Positions 3,048 to 56,926 of a stretch of DNA of 64,000 nt are shown here, in pieces. The stretch is from contig NZ_CM002299.1 of NCBI RefSeq assembly GCF_000153125.2, positions 3,761,338 through 3,825,337 of the forward strand, written 5' to 3'. Numbering within the stretch: position 1 is the stretch's first letter; the number at the start of each line of letters is the position of its first letter. The translations under genes were made by a program, and so were the position numbers. Below the pieces are notes generated by a model, which worked only from the letters and a program-made list of their open reading frames with translations, ran no database searches and was not told the DNA's origin. This DNA comes from Congregibacter litoralis KT71. GTDB lineage: Bacteria > Pseudomonadota > Gammaproteobacteria > Pseudomonadales > Halieaceae.

Positions 3048-3538
3048 TGCTCACCCTCGACGTATTTCGTGAGACTGTCGAGAAATCCCCGGATGATCAG
3101 ACGCTCCTTCGCGCCGCGGAAACGGCATTGACGGTAGGCTCTCCCGCGGCCCACGGGCACTGGGAGGCCGCTCTTCGCATTGTTGATGAAGCCGAAATGC
3201 AGCAGCTCAACGCGCAGTATCGCGCCAGGAACACACCCACCAACGTGCTGTCTTTTCCTGCGGATTTGCCCGCTGACGTCACCCTGAACCTGTTGGGGGA
3301 TATCGTTATCTGCGCGCCGGTGGTTAAAAAAGAGGCCACAAACCAGGGCAAGCCCCTCGCGGCGCACTGGGACCATATGCTGGTTCACGGCGTGCTCCAT
3401 CTCCTGGGTTTTGACCACGAATCTGACGCCGAGGCGACACACATGGAATCCCTGGAAACCCAGGCGCTGGCTACCCTTGGCTGGCCCTGTCCCTACAACG
3501 CCGACCCGGCAATGCTGGCAGAGGTAACGCCCGGATGA
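3047..3538 (+). CDS. ybeY: endoribonuclease YbeY
   Basis: Zinc-dependent single-strand endoribonuclease for 16S rRNA 3' maturation and ribosome quality control. The family's metal motif H-x3-H-x5-H is intact in HGVLHLLGFDH (H114, H118, H124). The usual NVLSFP block precedes it at residues 66-71. Length (163 aa) is typical. The gene overlaps ybeZ by one base and corC by four (ATGA), so it is probably translationally coupled to both. Confidence 0.96.
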   Translation: MLTLDVFRETVEKSPDDQTLLRAAETALTVGSPAAHGHWEAALRIVDEAEMQQLNAQYRARNTPTNVLSFPADLPADVTLNLLGDIVICAPVVKKEATNQGKPLAAHWDHMLVHGVLHLLGFDHESDAEATHMESLETQALATLGWPCPYNADPAMLAEVTPG

Positions 3539-4373
3539 GCGACGATCGCAACGGCAACGAAGAAAAGTCTTTTCTGAGCCGCATTGCCCAGGCTTTTTCC
3601 AGCGAGCCTCGAAGCCGCGAGGATCTCAAGGAAATCCTCCAGCTGGCCATGGAAAATGACATTATCGAGGAGGACTCCCTGTCCATCATCGACGGTGCCA
3701 TGCAGGTCAGCGGCATGCAGGCGCGGGACATCATGGTGCCCCGCCCTCAAATGGTGGTGATCAAGGCGGAGAGCAGGCTTGAGGAAATACTGCCTCATAT
3801 TTCCATCAGCAAACACTCCCGATATCCCGTGATCGGCGAGAGCCCCGACGACATCCTGGGAATACTCCTGGTCAAGGATCTGCTTCCGCAGATTTTGTCT
3901 GATGACCGCGAGAACTTTGATGTGCGACCCCTCCTAAGACAGACCGTGGTGGTGCCCGAAAGCAAGCGTCTGAATGTGCTGCTGCGGGAGTTTCGCGAAA
4001 ACCGCAATCACATGGCCATTGTGATCGATGAGTATGGCGGCGTCGCCGGCCTGGTCACCATTGAGGATGTTCTGGAAGAAATCGTGGGCGAGATCGAAGA
4101 CGAGACGGATGAAGAGGAAGATCAGTTTATCCGTCGCATCGCCGATGATGATTTCTTTGTGCGGGCGCTCACGCCCATCGAAGACTTTAACGCCTACTTT
4201 GAAGTGGCATTCAGCGATGACGAATTCGACACCATCGGCGGCCTGGTCATGCATGCCTTTGGTCACATGCCGACGCGCAATGAAATCACCCATATCGATG
4301 GCTTTGAATTCAAAGTGATCAACGCCGATCAAAGAAAGATCCACAGTTTGCGGTTACGTCCTCCCGGCGCGGA

Positions 4374-52299: not shown

Positions 52300-52380
52300 T
52301 ACGCATGTCCGTAGCATAAGCGACCCTTTCCCCTCACGGATGAGCCCCAGCGAACGCTGCCAACGCTTTTGCCAGTACCC

Positions 52381-53508
52381 ATGGACCTTCTCTACTTCGC
52401 GATACCTGCCCTGGCGCTAGCTGTAACGCTGATACTGTTATATCGCCAGCGCCGGGAATACCAACAGACCTTTGAAGAGCTACCCACGGGCCTTTGCGTC
52501 GTCAATGGCGATAACCGTGTTCTGCGCTGGAACCGCGAGATGGCGAGCCTCAGCGGCATTGCCGCGGAGGCGGCCCTAGGCGTAAAGATCGCCAGCCTGC
52601 CAAGCCCCTGGCCCGAGGCACTGAGCGACGCCCTCGTAGACCCCCAGGGTACGGTCATCAAGCAATCCCTGGGCTACGACGATAATGGCGGAGAACGCTG
52701 GGTGATTATTCACAGCAGCCCTCTGCAACTACCCGGAAGACGACGCCAGATCCTGGTGGAAAACATCACCGACTACCAGCGACTACAGGATGAACTGCTG
52801 CACAACGAGCGCCTGGCATCCATCGGACGCCTCGCCGCCGGCGTCGCCCATGAGATCGGCAACCCCGTCACCGGCATAGCCTGCATCGCCCAGAATCTCG
52901 CCGACAGTGCCGATCCCGTAGAGCTGGAAACCGGCACCCTGGAAATCCTGAAACAGACGGATCGGATTACACGAACCGTCAACGCCCTCATGCAGTTGTC
53001 GCACCCCGGCAGCAGTGTCCGCGAGGCAGATTCCGTGCCCTGTAATCTGGCTGACTGCATCGATGAGGCCGCTCATCTTCTCAATCTTGATATGGATGTT
53101 CCCCCGGGGGAGTTCATCAACAAGACGGATCGCGAACTGCTGGTTCGCGGCGACAGCCAGTTACTTCTGCAGGTGTTTCTCAACCTCCTGGATAACGCCC
53201 GCAGTGCTGCTGCCAACGAAGGGCCCGTGATTATCGACGCGGGACAAGACGGGGAAACCACGACCATCACGATTGATAACCCCGGCCCGGCCATCTCGAC
53301 GGAGGTGATTTCACAGGTTTTCGAGCCCTTCTACACCACCAAGGATGTCGGCGAGGGCACGGGCCTGGGCCTGGCTCTGGTACGACGTATGCTGGAAGAC
53401 ATGGGAGGCAGCGTCAGCCTCGCGAGCCCCTCACCGATCACGCCGGGGCGGGGGGTAAGAGCCCGTGTCCTGCTGTTTTCTGCGGAATACGGCCAGGGCT
53501 TTGCCTGA
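52381..53508 (+). CDS. cbrA: CbrA-type sensor histidine kinase, short form without transporter domain
   Basis: A 375-aa PAS-HisKA-HATPase kinase with one N-terminal membrane segment (residues 3-21). The phosphorylated histidine is H157 in GRLAAGVAHEIGNPVTGIA, which closely matches pseudomonad CbrA, and the ATP site has NLLDNARSAA and GTGLGLALV. Pseudomonad CbrA is near 980 aa because it also holds an SLC5-type transporter and a STAC domain; none of that is here. Synteny (dksA, gluQ, cbrA, cbrB, pcnB) supports the assignment. A TTG at 52369 is an alternative start. It is probably the partner of the regulator 75 bp downstream. Confidence 0.8.
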   Translation: MDLLYFAIPALALAVTLILLYRQRREYQQTFEELPTGLCVVNGDNRVLRWNREMASLSGIAAEAALGVKIASLPSPWPEALSDALVDPQGTVIKQSLGYDDNGGERWVIIHSSPLQLPGRRRQILVENITDYQRLQDELLHNERLASIGRLAAGVAHEIGNPVTGIACIAQNLADSADPVELETGTLEILKQTDRITRTVNALMQLSHPGSSVREADSVPCNLADCIDEAAHLLNLDMDVPPGEFINKTDRELLVRGDSQLLLQVFLNLLDNARSAAANEGPVIIDAGQDGETTTITIDNPGPAISTEVISQVFEPFYTTKDVGEGTGLGLALVRRMLEDMGGSVSLASPSPITPGRGVRARVLLFSAEYGQGFA

Positions 53509-53583: not shown

Positions 53584-55032
53584 ATGCAAAAGATACTGAT
53601 CGTCGAAGACGAGTCAGTCATCCGCGCGGCCTTGCGCCGATTGCTGGAGAGACACGGCTACATACTGGATGAAGCAGGGTCAGTGGCCGAGGCGCAAAGC
53701 GACTACTCCCTTGCCAGTTACGACCTGATCATCAGTGATCTCCGTCTGCCCGGCTCCCCGGGCACGGACCTCATCGCCCTTGCCGGCTCTACTCCCGTCT
53801 TGATCATGACCAGCTATGCGAGCCTTCGCTCCGCCGTGGATTCCATGCGCATGGGCGCTGTGGATTACATCGCCAAGCCCTTTGACCACGCTGACATGTT
53901 GCAGGCGGTGCAGCGCGTCATAGACAAGCACGCACAGCACAAAGCCCCCAAGGGGAAAAAAGCAACGAAAAGCGAAAAAACCGAGGCCACGCCGTCATCC
54001 GCCGCTCAGGATAATAATCCGACGATGATCATCGGCGAGTGCGACGCCATGCAGGCCCTCGCCGAGCACGTAGGAAAATTCGCACCTACAGACTCCACGG
54101 TCCTGGTGCTGGGAGAAACGGGAACCGGCAAGGAACTTGTCGCCCGGGAAATTCACGCTTTGAGCCGGCGAGCAGAGCAAACCCTGATCTCCGTCAACTG
54201 TGCCGCTATTCCCGAGACACTGATCGAGTCGGAGCTCTTTGGCTACGAGAAGGGTGCTTTCACCGGCGCCAACACTAATCGCATGGGACTCATAGAGGCG
54301 GCCGACGGTGGCACCCTGTTTCTCGACGAAATCGGTGAGCTGCCCATGGAAGCCCAGGCGAGGCTCCTGCGCTTTATTCAGGAAGGGGAAATTCGGCGCA
54401 TAGGCTCGGTGCATTCGCGTAAGGTGAATGTGCGTCTGATCTGCGCCACGCACCGGGACCTGCAAACGCTGGCCTCGGAAGGCAGCTTTCGACAGGATCT
54501 CTTTTATCGAATCAACGTGTTGCGGCTCAAGCTCCCGCCTCTCCGAGAGCGCGGCAAGGACATTCTGTTTCTTGCCGAACGGCTCCTGGAGAAACAGGCG
54601 GCCCGGGCCAAACGCGGCACCATGACCCTGTCACCTCGGGCCATACAGGCGATCACTACTTACCAATGGCCGGGCAACGTCCGGGAAATGGAACACGCCA
54701 TCGAGCGGGCGGTCATTCTCACGGACGGCACGGAAATCGATAACGAAGCCCTGGGGATTGACCTGGAACTGGTGAACATCAACCGTCTCCGCGGCGACCG
54801 GATGAACAGCGGTGCCAATAAAAGGCAACCCCGCAACAGTGACCCCGTGGAAGATCTGTCCCTGGAGGACTACTTCCAGCGGTTTGTGATCGAGCACCAG
54901 GACTCCATGAGCGAAACAGAACTGGCGCAGAAACTGGGCATCAGTCGTAAATGCCTGTGGGAGCGCCGCCAGCGTTTTGAAATACCACGGAAAAAGGCCG
55001 GCGGAAGTCGCCCTCGAAAGGCGGCGGGTTGA
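53584..55032 (+). CDS. cbrB: CbrB-type sigma-54-dependent response regulator
   Basis: A 482-aa NtrC-family activator. The receiver has its phosphoacceptor D52 ([12 protein letters not shown]), followed by [18 protein letters not shown] and [15 protein letters not shown], very close to Pseudomonas CbrB. The AAA+ domain at about 150-390 has GETGTGKE (Walker A) and the sigma-54 contact GAFTGA. A Fis-type helix-turn-helix ([19 protein letters not shown]) ends the chain. CbrA/CbrB govern carbon and nitrogen source use, largely through the CrcZ RNA. A sigma-54 promoter follows it. Confidence 0.92.
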
Positions 55033-55034
55033 CC

Positions 55035-55082
55035 GTTACCCTCCCCCACTGATACCCGCGGTAACAGTAGACATTAGTAACA
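55035..55082. promoter_or_regulatory. candidate CbrB upstream activating sites
   Basis: GTTAC at 55035-55039 is in inverted orientation to GTAACA at 55061-55066 and 55077-55082 (the latter two 16 bp apart). They begin three bases after the cbrB stop, about 75-120 bp ahead of the sigma-54 promoter, the usual range for an activator of this class. As I recall it, the reported pseudomonad CbrB site is TGTTAC-N14-GTAACA; the half-sites agree, but the spacing here differs. Confidence 0.55.
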
Positions 55083-55156
55083 AACCAGGCAAAGCAGCCC
55101 GACATCAGCAGAGCTTAAAAAGCCTAAGCCACTGAAATATATAGAATAAAAAAGTA

Positions 55157-55172
55157 TGGCACAAAGCCTGCT
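55157..55172 (+). promoter_or_regulatory. sigma-54 promoter
   Basis: TGGCACAAAGCCTGCT fits TGGCAC-N5-TTGCW with one mismatch. GG at -25/-24 and GC at -13/-12 have exact spacing. The predicted start is near 55183-55186. It lies 125 bp after the cbrB stop and is oriented towards pcnB. Confidence 0.85.
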
Positions 55173-55241
55173 TTTACTTCTGCGGACAAAAATAAAAATA
55201 ATGCGCACCGCAATAATAATAATTGGTTTAGTGAACCTGGA

Positions 55242-55266
55242 AGGGGGAAGTTTTTAACTTCCCCCT
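55242..55266 (+). terminator. strong hairpin in the CrcZ-like RNA
   Basis: AGGGGGAAGTT (55242-55252) pairs perfectly with AACTTCCCCCT (55256-55266) around TTT. The tail CGTTCGTTC is only partly T-rich, so it could be a terminator or an internal structural element. Confidence 0.5.
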
Positions 55267-55295
55267 CGTTCGTTCTGGCGAATGCTTTTAACTAG

Positions 55296-55410
55296 GACAC
55301 GCCGCGGCGCTTTACTACGACACGCCAGAGCCTCTTACAAAGACCCGCCGCAGCCTTTTATAGAGACACGCCGCAGCGCTTTACCAAAACCCGCCGAAGC
55401 GCTTCTATCA
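55296..55410. repeat. 23-bp imperfect tandem repeat
   Basis: Five units begin at 55296, 55319, 55342, 55365 and 55388, each of the form GACACGCCGCAGCGCTTTAC plus three bases. A sixth degenerate copy may begin at 55414. Cores such as GCCGCGGC can self-pair, with A-rich linkers between. The array lies between the short hairpin and pcnB and may be part of the small RNA. Confidence 0.85.
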
Positions 55411-55645
55411 CCAGACACTCGCGCACCCTACCTACAAGTTCCTGCACATTCCTCAGACAAGCCATGGTAGAGGCCTCCCGCAAGCGCCTCCAAGCCTGAC
55501 TTTATGGCACCCTGTGCTACCATGCGGGCTTCCTGAAACGGCCCTGGAACCCCCCGGTGACCCCGTTTTTTTAAAGGTTGCAGACTGGCAGGTCCCGAGG
55601 CCCGCTCTCTGCATTATTGGCGACACGAAGAGAAGACATCAACGC

Positions 55646-56926
55646 TTGAACGTCATACCCAGAGATCAACATTGCGTCTCCCGCAAAGACATCAGCCCCG
55701 GTGCTTTAAAAGTCATGGCAAGGCTCAGGGATAAGGAGCACCAGGCATATCTGGTCGGCGGCGCAGTTCGCGACCTCCTCCTGGGGGGGCACCCCAAAGA
55801 CTTCGATATCGCCACGGATGCCACGCCGGAAGAAGTGCACGCTCTGTTCGGCAACTCCCGCATTATCGGCCGACGCTTTCGCATCGTACATGTGCGCTTT
55901 GGCCGGGAAGTTATCGAAGTCACAACATTCCGTGGCCATCATGATGACACCGAAGCTACCACCGGCGCCAAACGCTCCTCCCGGGGCCTGCTCCTTCGGG
56001 ACAATGTGTTCGGGACCCTGGAAGAAGACGCAGTTCGCCGTGATCTGACGGTCAATGCACTGTATTACGACAGTGGCAGCTTCGAGGTTTTTGACCAGGT
56101 AGGCGGCCTCGACGACCTGGAGGCAAGACAGGTGCGGGTTATTGGTGATCCCGCAACGCGCTACCGCGAAGATCCCGTACGCATGCTCCGCTGCCTGCGC
56201 TTTGCCGCAAAGCTGGGATTCAACGTAGAGAAGTCCAGCGGCGCGGCTATTCCCAGGCTCGCTGCACTGCTGGATGACATACCGCCCGCGCGACTCTTTG
56301 ATGAGTTCGGCAAGCTGTTTCTCACGGGCAACGCCCAGGCAACTTTGCGCCTGCTGCGGGAATACCGATGCTTTGAACATCTGTTTCCCGATAGTGCCCG
56401 CCTGGCCGACAGCGACGGTTTTTACGATCGCCTCCTTGACGCCGCTATGGGTAATACGGATCAGCGTATTCGCCAGGAGAAACCGGTAACTCCCGCCTTC
56501 ATTCTGGCCGCTGTGCTGTGGCCCGCGGTCTGTGAACGCCGACAGCAGCTGGAAAATCAGGGAGAGAAGCCCGTGCCCGCCATGCACGGTGCGGGACAGG
56601 AGATCGTCGCCCAGGCCTGCCAGCGCATCGCGATTCCCCGTCGCTTCAGCATGCCCATGCGCGAGATCTGGGAGATGCAGCTTCGCCTGCCTCGCACCGA
56701 GGGCAAGCGCGCCATAGAGCTCATGAGTAAACGCCGTTTTCGCGCTGCCTACGATTTTCTGTTGCTCCGGGAGCAAGCGGGCGAGGACTGCTCCGGGCTG
56801 GGGGCAATCTGGACACGCCTTCAGGAGGAACACGGCCCCATCGAGATCGTGGACTCGCCCGACGATCGCCGCCCGCCGCGCCGCCGTCGCCGGGGCGGAC
56901 GCCGACGCCCGGCACCTCCCGCGTGA
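55646..56926 (+). CDS. pcnB: poly(A) polymerase I
   Basis: Adds poly(A) tails that direct RNAs to decay. The homologous region begins LNVIPRDQHCVSRKDISPGALKVM (in parts), as in E. coli PcnB, at the TTG at 55646. The frame is open back to a GTG at 55514, but that extra stretch lacks family similarity. The nucleotidyltransferase core is LVGGAVRDLLLGGHPKDFDIAT, and ERRDLTVNAL-like VRRDLTVNALYYD follows. The C-terminus is an arginine-rich tail (RRPPRRRRRGGRRR). The folK GTG overlaps its stop. Confidence 0.92.
   Translation: MNVIPRDQHCVSRKDISPGALKVMARLRDKEHQAYLVGGAVRDLLLGGHPKDFDIATDATPEEVHALFGNSRIIGRRFRIVHVRFGREVIEVTTFRGHHDDTEATTGAKRSSRGLLLRDNVFGTLEEDAVRRDLTVNALYYDSGSFEVFDQVGGLDDLEARQVRVIGDPATRYREDPVRMLRCLRFAAKLGFNVEKSSGAAIPRLAALLDDIPPARLFDEFGKLFLTGNAQATLRLLREYRCFEHLFPDSARLADSDGFYDRLLDAAMGNTDQRIRQEKPVTPAFILAAVLWPAVCERRQQLENQGEKPVPAMHGAGQEIVAQACQRIAIPRRFSMPMREIWEMQLRLPRTEGKRAIELMSKRRFRAAYDFLLLREQAGEDCSGLGAIWTRLQEEHGPIEIVDSPDDRRPPRRRRRGGRRRPAPPA

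Follow-up and report, generated by a model that had tools for sequence, protein, structure and literature searches.

Does the interval between cbrB and pcnB in the window (the whole 64,000-nucleotide stretch of DNA analysed here) encode an RNA related to CrcZ, which in Pseudomonas titrates Hfq/Crc and so relieves catabolite repression? A first-pass annotation had proposed a CrcZ-like small RNA there, running from 55157 to 55572. Our analysis indicates that the locus probably encodes a shorter molecule, a CrcZ-type Hfq/Crc decoy of ~95 nt driven by CbrB and sigma-54; we infer its transcription, ends, Hfq/Crc binding, titration and signal from the sequence. The RNA lies between cbrB and pcnB in the gene order dksA-gluQRS-kinase-cbrB-RNA-pcnB-folK-panB-panC, on a source genome of a single 4.35-Mb contig. 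The surrounding genes are as follows:

50817 (start): dksA
51316 (start): gluQRS
52369-53508, plus strand: short CbrA-type kinase of 379 aa, with Pfam PAS-HisKA-HATPase domains and one transmembrane (TM) segment by sequence
53584-55032, plus strand: CbrB ortholog, an NtrC-type sigma-54 activator (Pfam; 59-63% identity to CbrB)
55646-56926, plus strand: pcnB (TIGR01942, 490.7 bits), with a TTG start placed by the conserved N terminus
56923 (start): folK

The open reading frame between folK and panB, which we take to resemble a deoxynucleoside kinase, gave no NCBIfam match at 1e-20. The named records nearest to the window's PcnB are gamma proteobacterium NOR5-3 (90% identity), MAG Co_bin.81 (84%) and Halieaceae bacterium UBA6060 (80%), and we therefore place the organism in the Halieaceae.

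Directly after cbrB we recovered the sigma-54 element reported by the first-pass annotation, with its exact -24/-12 spacing, preceded by an array of upstream sites:

55034-55040, plus strand: CbrB-type subsite CGTTACC, -123 from TGGCAC, conserved
55060-55066, plus strand: CbrB-type subsite GGTAACA, -97 from TGGCAC (most relatives have their middle site near -105)
55076-55082, plus strand: CbrB-type subsite AGTAACA, -81 from TGGCAC
55125-55137, plus strand: weak IHF-like site with two mismatches
55157-55172, plus strand: sigma-54 -24/-12 element, TGGCAC (55157-55162), N5, CTGCT (55168-55172), with exact GG-N10-GC

The predicted transcription start from this element is ~55183. In P. putida, CbrB acts through three TGTTAC/GTAACA-type subsites at each of crcZ, crcY and PP2810, with assistance from IHF (PMC6296734); in the window, likewise, three CbrB-type subsites lie upstream of the sigma-54 promoter. 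At all 31 Halieaceae-like loci, two or more GTTAC/GTAAC subsites precede a sigma-54 element, against 2.1 loci expected from dinucleotide shuffles, and 25 of the 31 have at least three, the usual positions being near -124, -105 and -82 from TGGCAC. Twenty of these loci (5.4 expected) have an IHF-like site with no more than one mismatch; the window, with its two mismatches, is not among them. L026 and L028, where the sequence piece taken holds no cbrB, stand outside the 31. Other families contributed 26 further cbrB loci; the first 500 bases contain a sigma-54 element in 17 of them, and all 17 have at least two subsites.

The combination of promoter and A-tract was then compared between loci with and without CbrB, using 89 distinct loci (L031, L032, L033, L036 and L038 were excluded as duplicates of L002, L003, L004, L008 and L037, and loci with fewer than 1000 bases before pcnB were left out). 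A sigma-54 element with an A-tract lies between cbrB and pcnB at 53 of the 58 loci with a CbrB ortholog (at least 50% identity), where mononucleotide shuffling gave 0.0 expected, whereas none of the 31 loci without a CbrB ortholog has the pair in the 1.5 kb searched before pcnB. The exceptions among CbrB-bearing loci are L051, L054, L059, L061 and L072; L059 and L072 have the sigma-54 element with more distant A-tracts. Promoter and A-tracts also sit beside cbrB in Microbulbifer, Porticoccus, Oceanicoccus and Thalassolituus.

Downstream of the promoter, the predicted RNA has a compact anatomy:

55183-55275, plus strand: compact CrcZ-type small RNA (ends predicted, give or take a few bases; covariance model R1 matches 55181-55272)
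55186-55202, plus strand: A-tract 1, ARN repeats
55211-55224, plus strand: A-tract 2, ARN repeats
55233-55241, plus strand: conserved box GAACCTGGA (GGACCTGGAT in relatives)
55242-55266, plus strand: GC hairpin, probable terminator

The two A-rich tracts and the strong hairpin 3' of them agree with the first-pass annotation, which had named loss of the tracts and of the sigma-54 element in close relatives as grounds for rejecting its proposal. Both are retained, the sigma-54 element with its subsites at 31 of 31 loci. All 31 Halieaceae-like loci also have the box together with the hairpin start. Outside the window's genus, one order of elements is common to the 27 loci: 5' arm, tract 1, 3' arm, tract 2, GGACCTGGAT and a GGGGAAG hairpin. 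Identity to NOR5-3 is 74% up to the hairpin and 38% from the hairpin to pcnB. Since conservation ends at the hairpin, the RNA probably ends near 55275 and not at the originally proposed 55572, which is too far downstream; a length of ~95 nt is most likely. The sequence CGTTCGTTCT at the tail of the hairpin does not form a canonical U-run.

Taken alone, the 97-nt RNA is predicted to fold more stably than its shuffles (z -3.6). Arms flanking tract 1 at the 31 loci pair better with their own partner (mean -7.59 kcal/mol) than with the arms of other species (-6.13 kcal/mol), a result equalled in 1 of 5000 permutations that ignore kinship between loci; tract 1 therefore probably lies in the loop of a 5' stem in the relatives. 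In the window's predicted fold, the 5' stem (55181-55185/55208-55212) competes with an inter-tract hairpin (55202-55205/55209-55212). The small stem previously drawn between the tracts thus exists in the prediction, as one of two competing structures.

Two other accounts of the locus bear on this anatomy. One is that an A-rich sequence happens to lie next to a chance sigma-54 match, as might be thought from the 0 matches in the window at Rfam's gathering cut-off and from the full originally proposed interval (55157-55572), whose folding stability is not above that of shuffles (z -1.1). The anatomy is nevertheless conserved at 31 of 31 loci, the R1 model matches, and loci with and without CbrB differ; conservation refutes the chance reading, to which we give practically no credence. 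The other account has no free small RNA at all: CbrB and sigma-54 would drive a leader of pcnB, with the hairpin as attenuator. We consider this very unlikely. In its favour, pcnB lies downstream in the same direction, the hairpin tail makes a poor terminator and the relatives' second RNA unit is close to pcnB; against it, pcnB is 0.8-2 kb further away at several loci and the conserved block adjoins cbrB. Moreover, a sigma-70-like extended -10 element with TGTGCTA, TGTGCTACCAT, stands just upstream of pcnB at 55513-55523 and recurs before pcnB in relatives as TGTGNTAGACT (by eye); it is probably the pcnB promoter.

Related genomes were searched with a covariance model, R1, built from the 27 loci outside the window's genus with base pairs modelled for the terminal hairpin alone. 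R1 matched the window RNA at 55181-55272 with 53.9 bits (E 8.4e-9), the window's genus being absent from training, and on the whole source genome the window RNA was the sole match (E 5.7e-7). At E<=0.1, matches occurred in 41 of 58 relatives, including 35 of 37 within the window's family; first-unit matches of training loci arise by construction, and the independent ones are those in the window's genus, in second units, in untrained genomes and in other families. By eye, 63 of 66 R1 matches adjoin pcnB. The matches away from pcnB (G030:C43:29038-29132, G049:C160:7902-7992 and G027:C301:12299-12389) are possibly moved or second copies. Among 194 genomes sampled from the order, R1 found the compact module in 46 at E<=0.01.

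How close is this RNA to CrcZ itself? The Rfam CrcZ family RF01675 scores 9.3 bits in the window (E 4.3) against a cut-off of 95 bits, and over the source genome it gave no match at E<=1. Other Rfam candidates in the window (HrrF, MALAT1, mir-564 and Xist) were far below cut-off and taken as chance. RF01675 exceeds its cut-off in 9 of the 194 genomes of the order. Five other Halieaceae give matches below cut-off, of which four fall at model positions ~270-380 (E 5e-6 at best), and RF01675 also matches 3 of 14 control genomes below cut-off at E<=1, so that weak RF01675 matches alone prove little. In the other direction, R1 matches six CrcZ loci of Pseudomonas type (L102-L107, labelled from their RF01675 scores of 307-368 bits) at their 3' end, with 24.8-32.2 bits and E 6e-4 to 0.02 in 203 kb. 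In the R1-L106 alignment, A-tract falls on A-tract, followed by ACCU and then the terminal hairpin. At whole-genome scale, R1 against CrcZ is not significant: G056 gave E 0.09 and was absent at E<=0.01. The family of compact RNAs thus resembles the 3' module of CrcZ weakly in both directions, and the window's member joins that family through R1.

Window RNA and CrcZ (RF01675, with paralogs CrcY and CrcX) share their site between cbrB and pcnB, the CbrB-type subsites, the sigma-54 promoter, ARN tracts and a terminal hairpin, and the 3' end of CrcZ resembles the ~91-nt module of the compact RNA. They differ in length (~400 nt for CrcZ, about 95 nt here), in (AAN)3+ runs (4-6 at CrcZ-type loci, 2 in the window) and in the central TGATT-T(n)-GGAGA core of CrcZ. 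A pattern search found this core at 11 of 12 CrcZ loci (L102 was missed by the pattern) and at 0 of the 31 Halieaceae-like loci; the window has neither the ~400-nt length nor the core. The compact RNA is set apart further by its RF01675 score, its GGACCTGGAT box and, in many relatives, a second unit. We therefore describe it as a compact variant that has the location and promoter of CrcZ and a 3' module that looks homologous, and as no CrcZ by Rfam's definition. The earlier idea of a compact CrcZ relative outside Pseudomonas gains support from the promoter, subsites, gene order, CbrB identity, encoded Hfq and Crc, and model matches in both directions. Separately, L111-L113 and other genomes of families f35, f20, f44 and f8 hold full-length CrcZ-type RNAs that score below the Rfam cut-off (roughly 35-73 bits), which suggests that RF01675 under-covers the order.

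Most Halieaceae carry the module twice. R1, trained on the first unit alone, matched a second copy downstream in 24 of 35 family genomes, and a stricter pattern found the box twice at 21 of the 31 Halieaceae-like loci. The window and three genus mates have the first unit without the second; in the window, a GC-rich tandem repeat of ~23 nt with about 4.8 copies (55291-55408), located between the RNA and pcnB, lies in the stretch where most relatives have the second unit. In the Halieaceae sequences inspected, the second unit has no sigma-54 element of its own, bar a chance-like match 79 bases upstream in L011. An Oceanicoccus locus (L037) carries tandem compact RNAs at 3193-3281 and 3593-3683, both of which have a sigma-54 element and GTTAC/GTAAC sites of their own.

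The recurrence of box and hairpin strand in the second unit, and their near-invariance across Halieaceae beyond what pairing needs, could point to a different kind of RNA under CbrB: an Hfq-dependent base-pairing small RNA, or one that binds another protein, in which the GGACCUGGAUGGGGAAG box does the work and the A-tracts merely recruit Hfq. Complements of the box in the crc, cbr and pcnB loci offered no obvious partner among the matches listed, however, and at the Porticoccus-type loci L052 and L060 the box differs while A-tracts and promoter are retained. We regard this alternative as unlikely and retain the Hfq/Crc decoy as the preferred reading.

The Hfq of the window's genome is closest to P. 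aeruginosa Hfq and nearly identical to it in the first ~65 residues. A candidate Crc (L116:1465-2226) sits between pyrE and rph. Among solved structures it matches P. aeruginosa Crc best, at 201 bits, the next being an ExoIII at 193 (8 bits less), and NCBIfam names it exodeoxyribonuclease III with 184.9 bits, compared with 257.4 for a true-looking ExoIII paralog; from the structure match, by its small margin, and the pyrE and rph neighbours we take it as the ortholog of Pseudomonas Crc. In Hfq/Crc/RNA structures, K139, R140, R141, K155, M156 and R196 of Crc contact RNA and Crc-Crc contacts involve E142, E193, R229 and R230 (PMC6422490). K139-R140-R141 is retained in 27 of 27 aligned proteins, which makes the core RNA contact plausible. 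K155, R196, R229 and R230 are altered in 20 of 20 Halieaceae examined (the window's genome plus 19 of 36 family relatives), and at residue 142 the window's genus has K or D (4 of 4), whereas the remaining 16 have E. The P. aeruginosa complex and that of the window would therefore be alike in near-identical Hfq, in a Crc encoded between pyrE and rph and in K139-R140-R141, and unlike in two RNA contacts (K155 and R196) and in the Crc-Crc residues R229 and R230; with these residues altered, Hfq/Crc assembly may differ in Halieaceae, and it is probably different from that of Pseudomonas.

Candidate targets were sought with the pattern AAHAAHAAHAAHAA, which fits tract 1. It gave 13 matches at 11 distinct places in the 4.35-Mb genome; the pattern reads identically when reversed, making a reversed-pattern control uninformative. 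One of the 11 places is the window RNA. Another runs into a possible GTG start, that of a 505-aa frame, and eight have no start beside them in either orientation within the distance used. Start-site targets found by this long A-tract pattern lend only thin support to the decoy. At L120:1501-1519, AACAACAATAAAAA stops 2 nt short of the ATG of an aldehyde-dehydrogenase-like gene, a candidate Hfq/Crc target; in 57 other genomes, relatives of this aldehyde dehydrogenase do not exceed 47%.

We also compared the regulators with those of seven genomes with CrcZ-type loci (four above the RF01675 cut-off, three below it at 67-73 bits). The window's CbrB shows 59-63% identity to theirs over 474-478 residues, end to end, which marks it as a CbrB ortholog. 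Its kinase aligns solely to residues ~642-1024 of the ~1000-aa CbrA (36-41%), and three genus-mate kinases, in frames of 394-404 aa with one TM-like segment, match the PAS-kinase end alone. CbrA's ~640-residue transporter-like region is thus absent in 4 of 4 genomes of the window's genus. CbrA regions were taken from 16 of 36 relatives in the family; in 12 of 13 other Halieaceae the kinase frame has 996-1043 residues and 9-14 TM-like segments, the TM count being the basis on which the SLC5-type region was judged present in these 12, and Pfam named no transporter domain in two long CbrA proteins tested. One full-length CbrA (L156) is 44-49% identical to CbrA of the seven genomes over 992-1022 residues. 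A split-off transporter half, sought in the window's genome and three mates, gave 31-32% matches in ~1180-1200-aa frames alone, which were rejected as that half since counterparts exist in other relatives. In the thirteenth of these Halieaceae genomes (G015, L167), CbrB and the compact RNA occur without an adjoining CbrA, and gluQRS is directly beside cbrB.

The CbrA-CbrB system of the window thus has a CbrB orthologous end to end and an orthologous kinase core, whereas the N-terminal ~640 residues found in the full-length CbrA of most Halieaceae examined are missing from its genus. This short CbrA is a naturally occurring equivalent of the delta-TM construct of P. putida: PMC6591292 reports that P. 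putida CbrA without TM domains gives a carbon response when overproduced and not from its own promoter. A short form can therefore work.

In the mechanism we favour, CbrB bound at the three GTTAC/GTAAC subsites would activate sigma-54 transcription of the ~95-nt RNA when good carbon is scarce. The RNA, its 3' end formed by the GC hairpin, would present two (ARN)n tracts to the Hfq distal face and Crc, the first probably within a 5' stem-loop and the second single-stranded. It would thereby titrate Hfq/Crc from mRNAs with like A-tracts at their start sites and relieve catabolite repression, as CrcZ does in Pseudomonas. More tentatively, and with real doubt, we propose a reusable decoy module (stem-loop A-tract, free A-tract, ACCU box and GC hairpin) that may be present once in the window's genus, twice in tandem in most Halieaceae and as the 3' end of the ~400-nt CrcZ. 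Copy number might then tune Hfq/Crc titration, the genus might have lost the second module together with the transporter-like region of CbrA, and the near-invariant GGACCUGGAU box might have a second function.

A 2022 review describes CbrAB and the conserved crcZ locus as unique to Pseudomonadaceae (PMC8871633), and titles and abstracts on CrcZ and CbrB beyond that family contain, among the matches listed, no description of the compact RNA. The RNA is of a kind already known, in a form and range that are new: a putative compact CrcZ-type decoy beside a simplified CbrA. For structural work it would supply a minimal Hfq/Crc decoy of natural origin, and a CbrA that naturally lacks the transporter-like region bears on what CbrA senses. 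A CbrAB-crcZ-type circuit would extend to the Halieaceae and, judged by promoter and A-tracts, to Microbulbifer, Porticoccus, Oceanicoccus and Thalassolituus.
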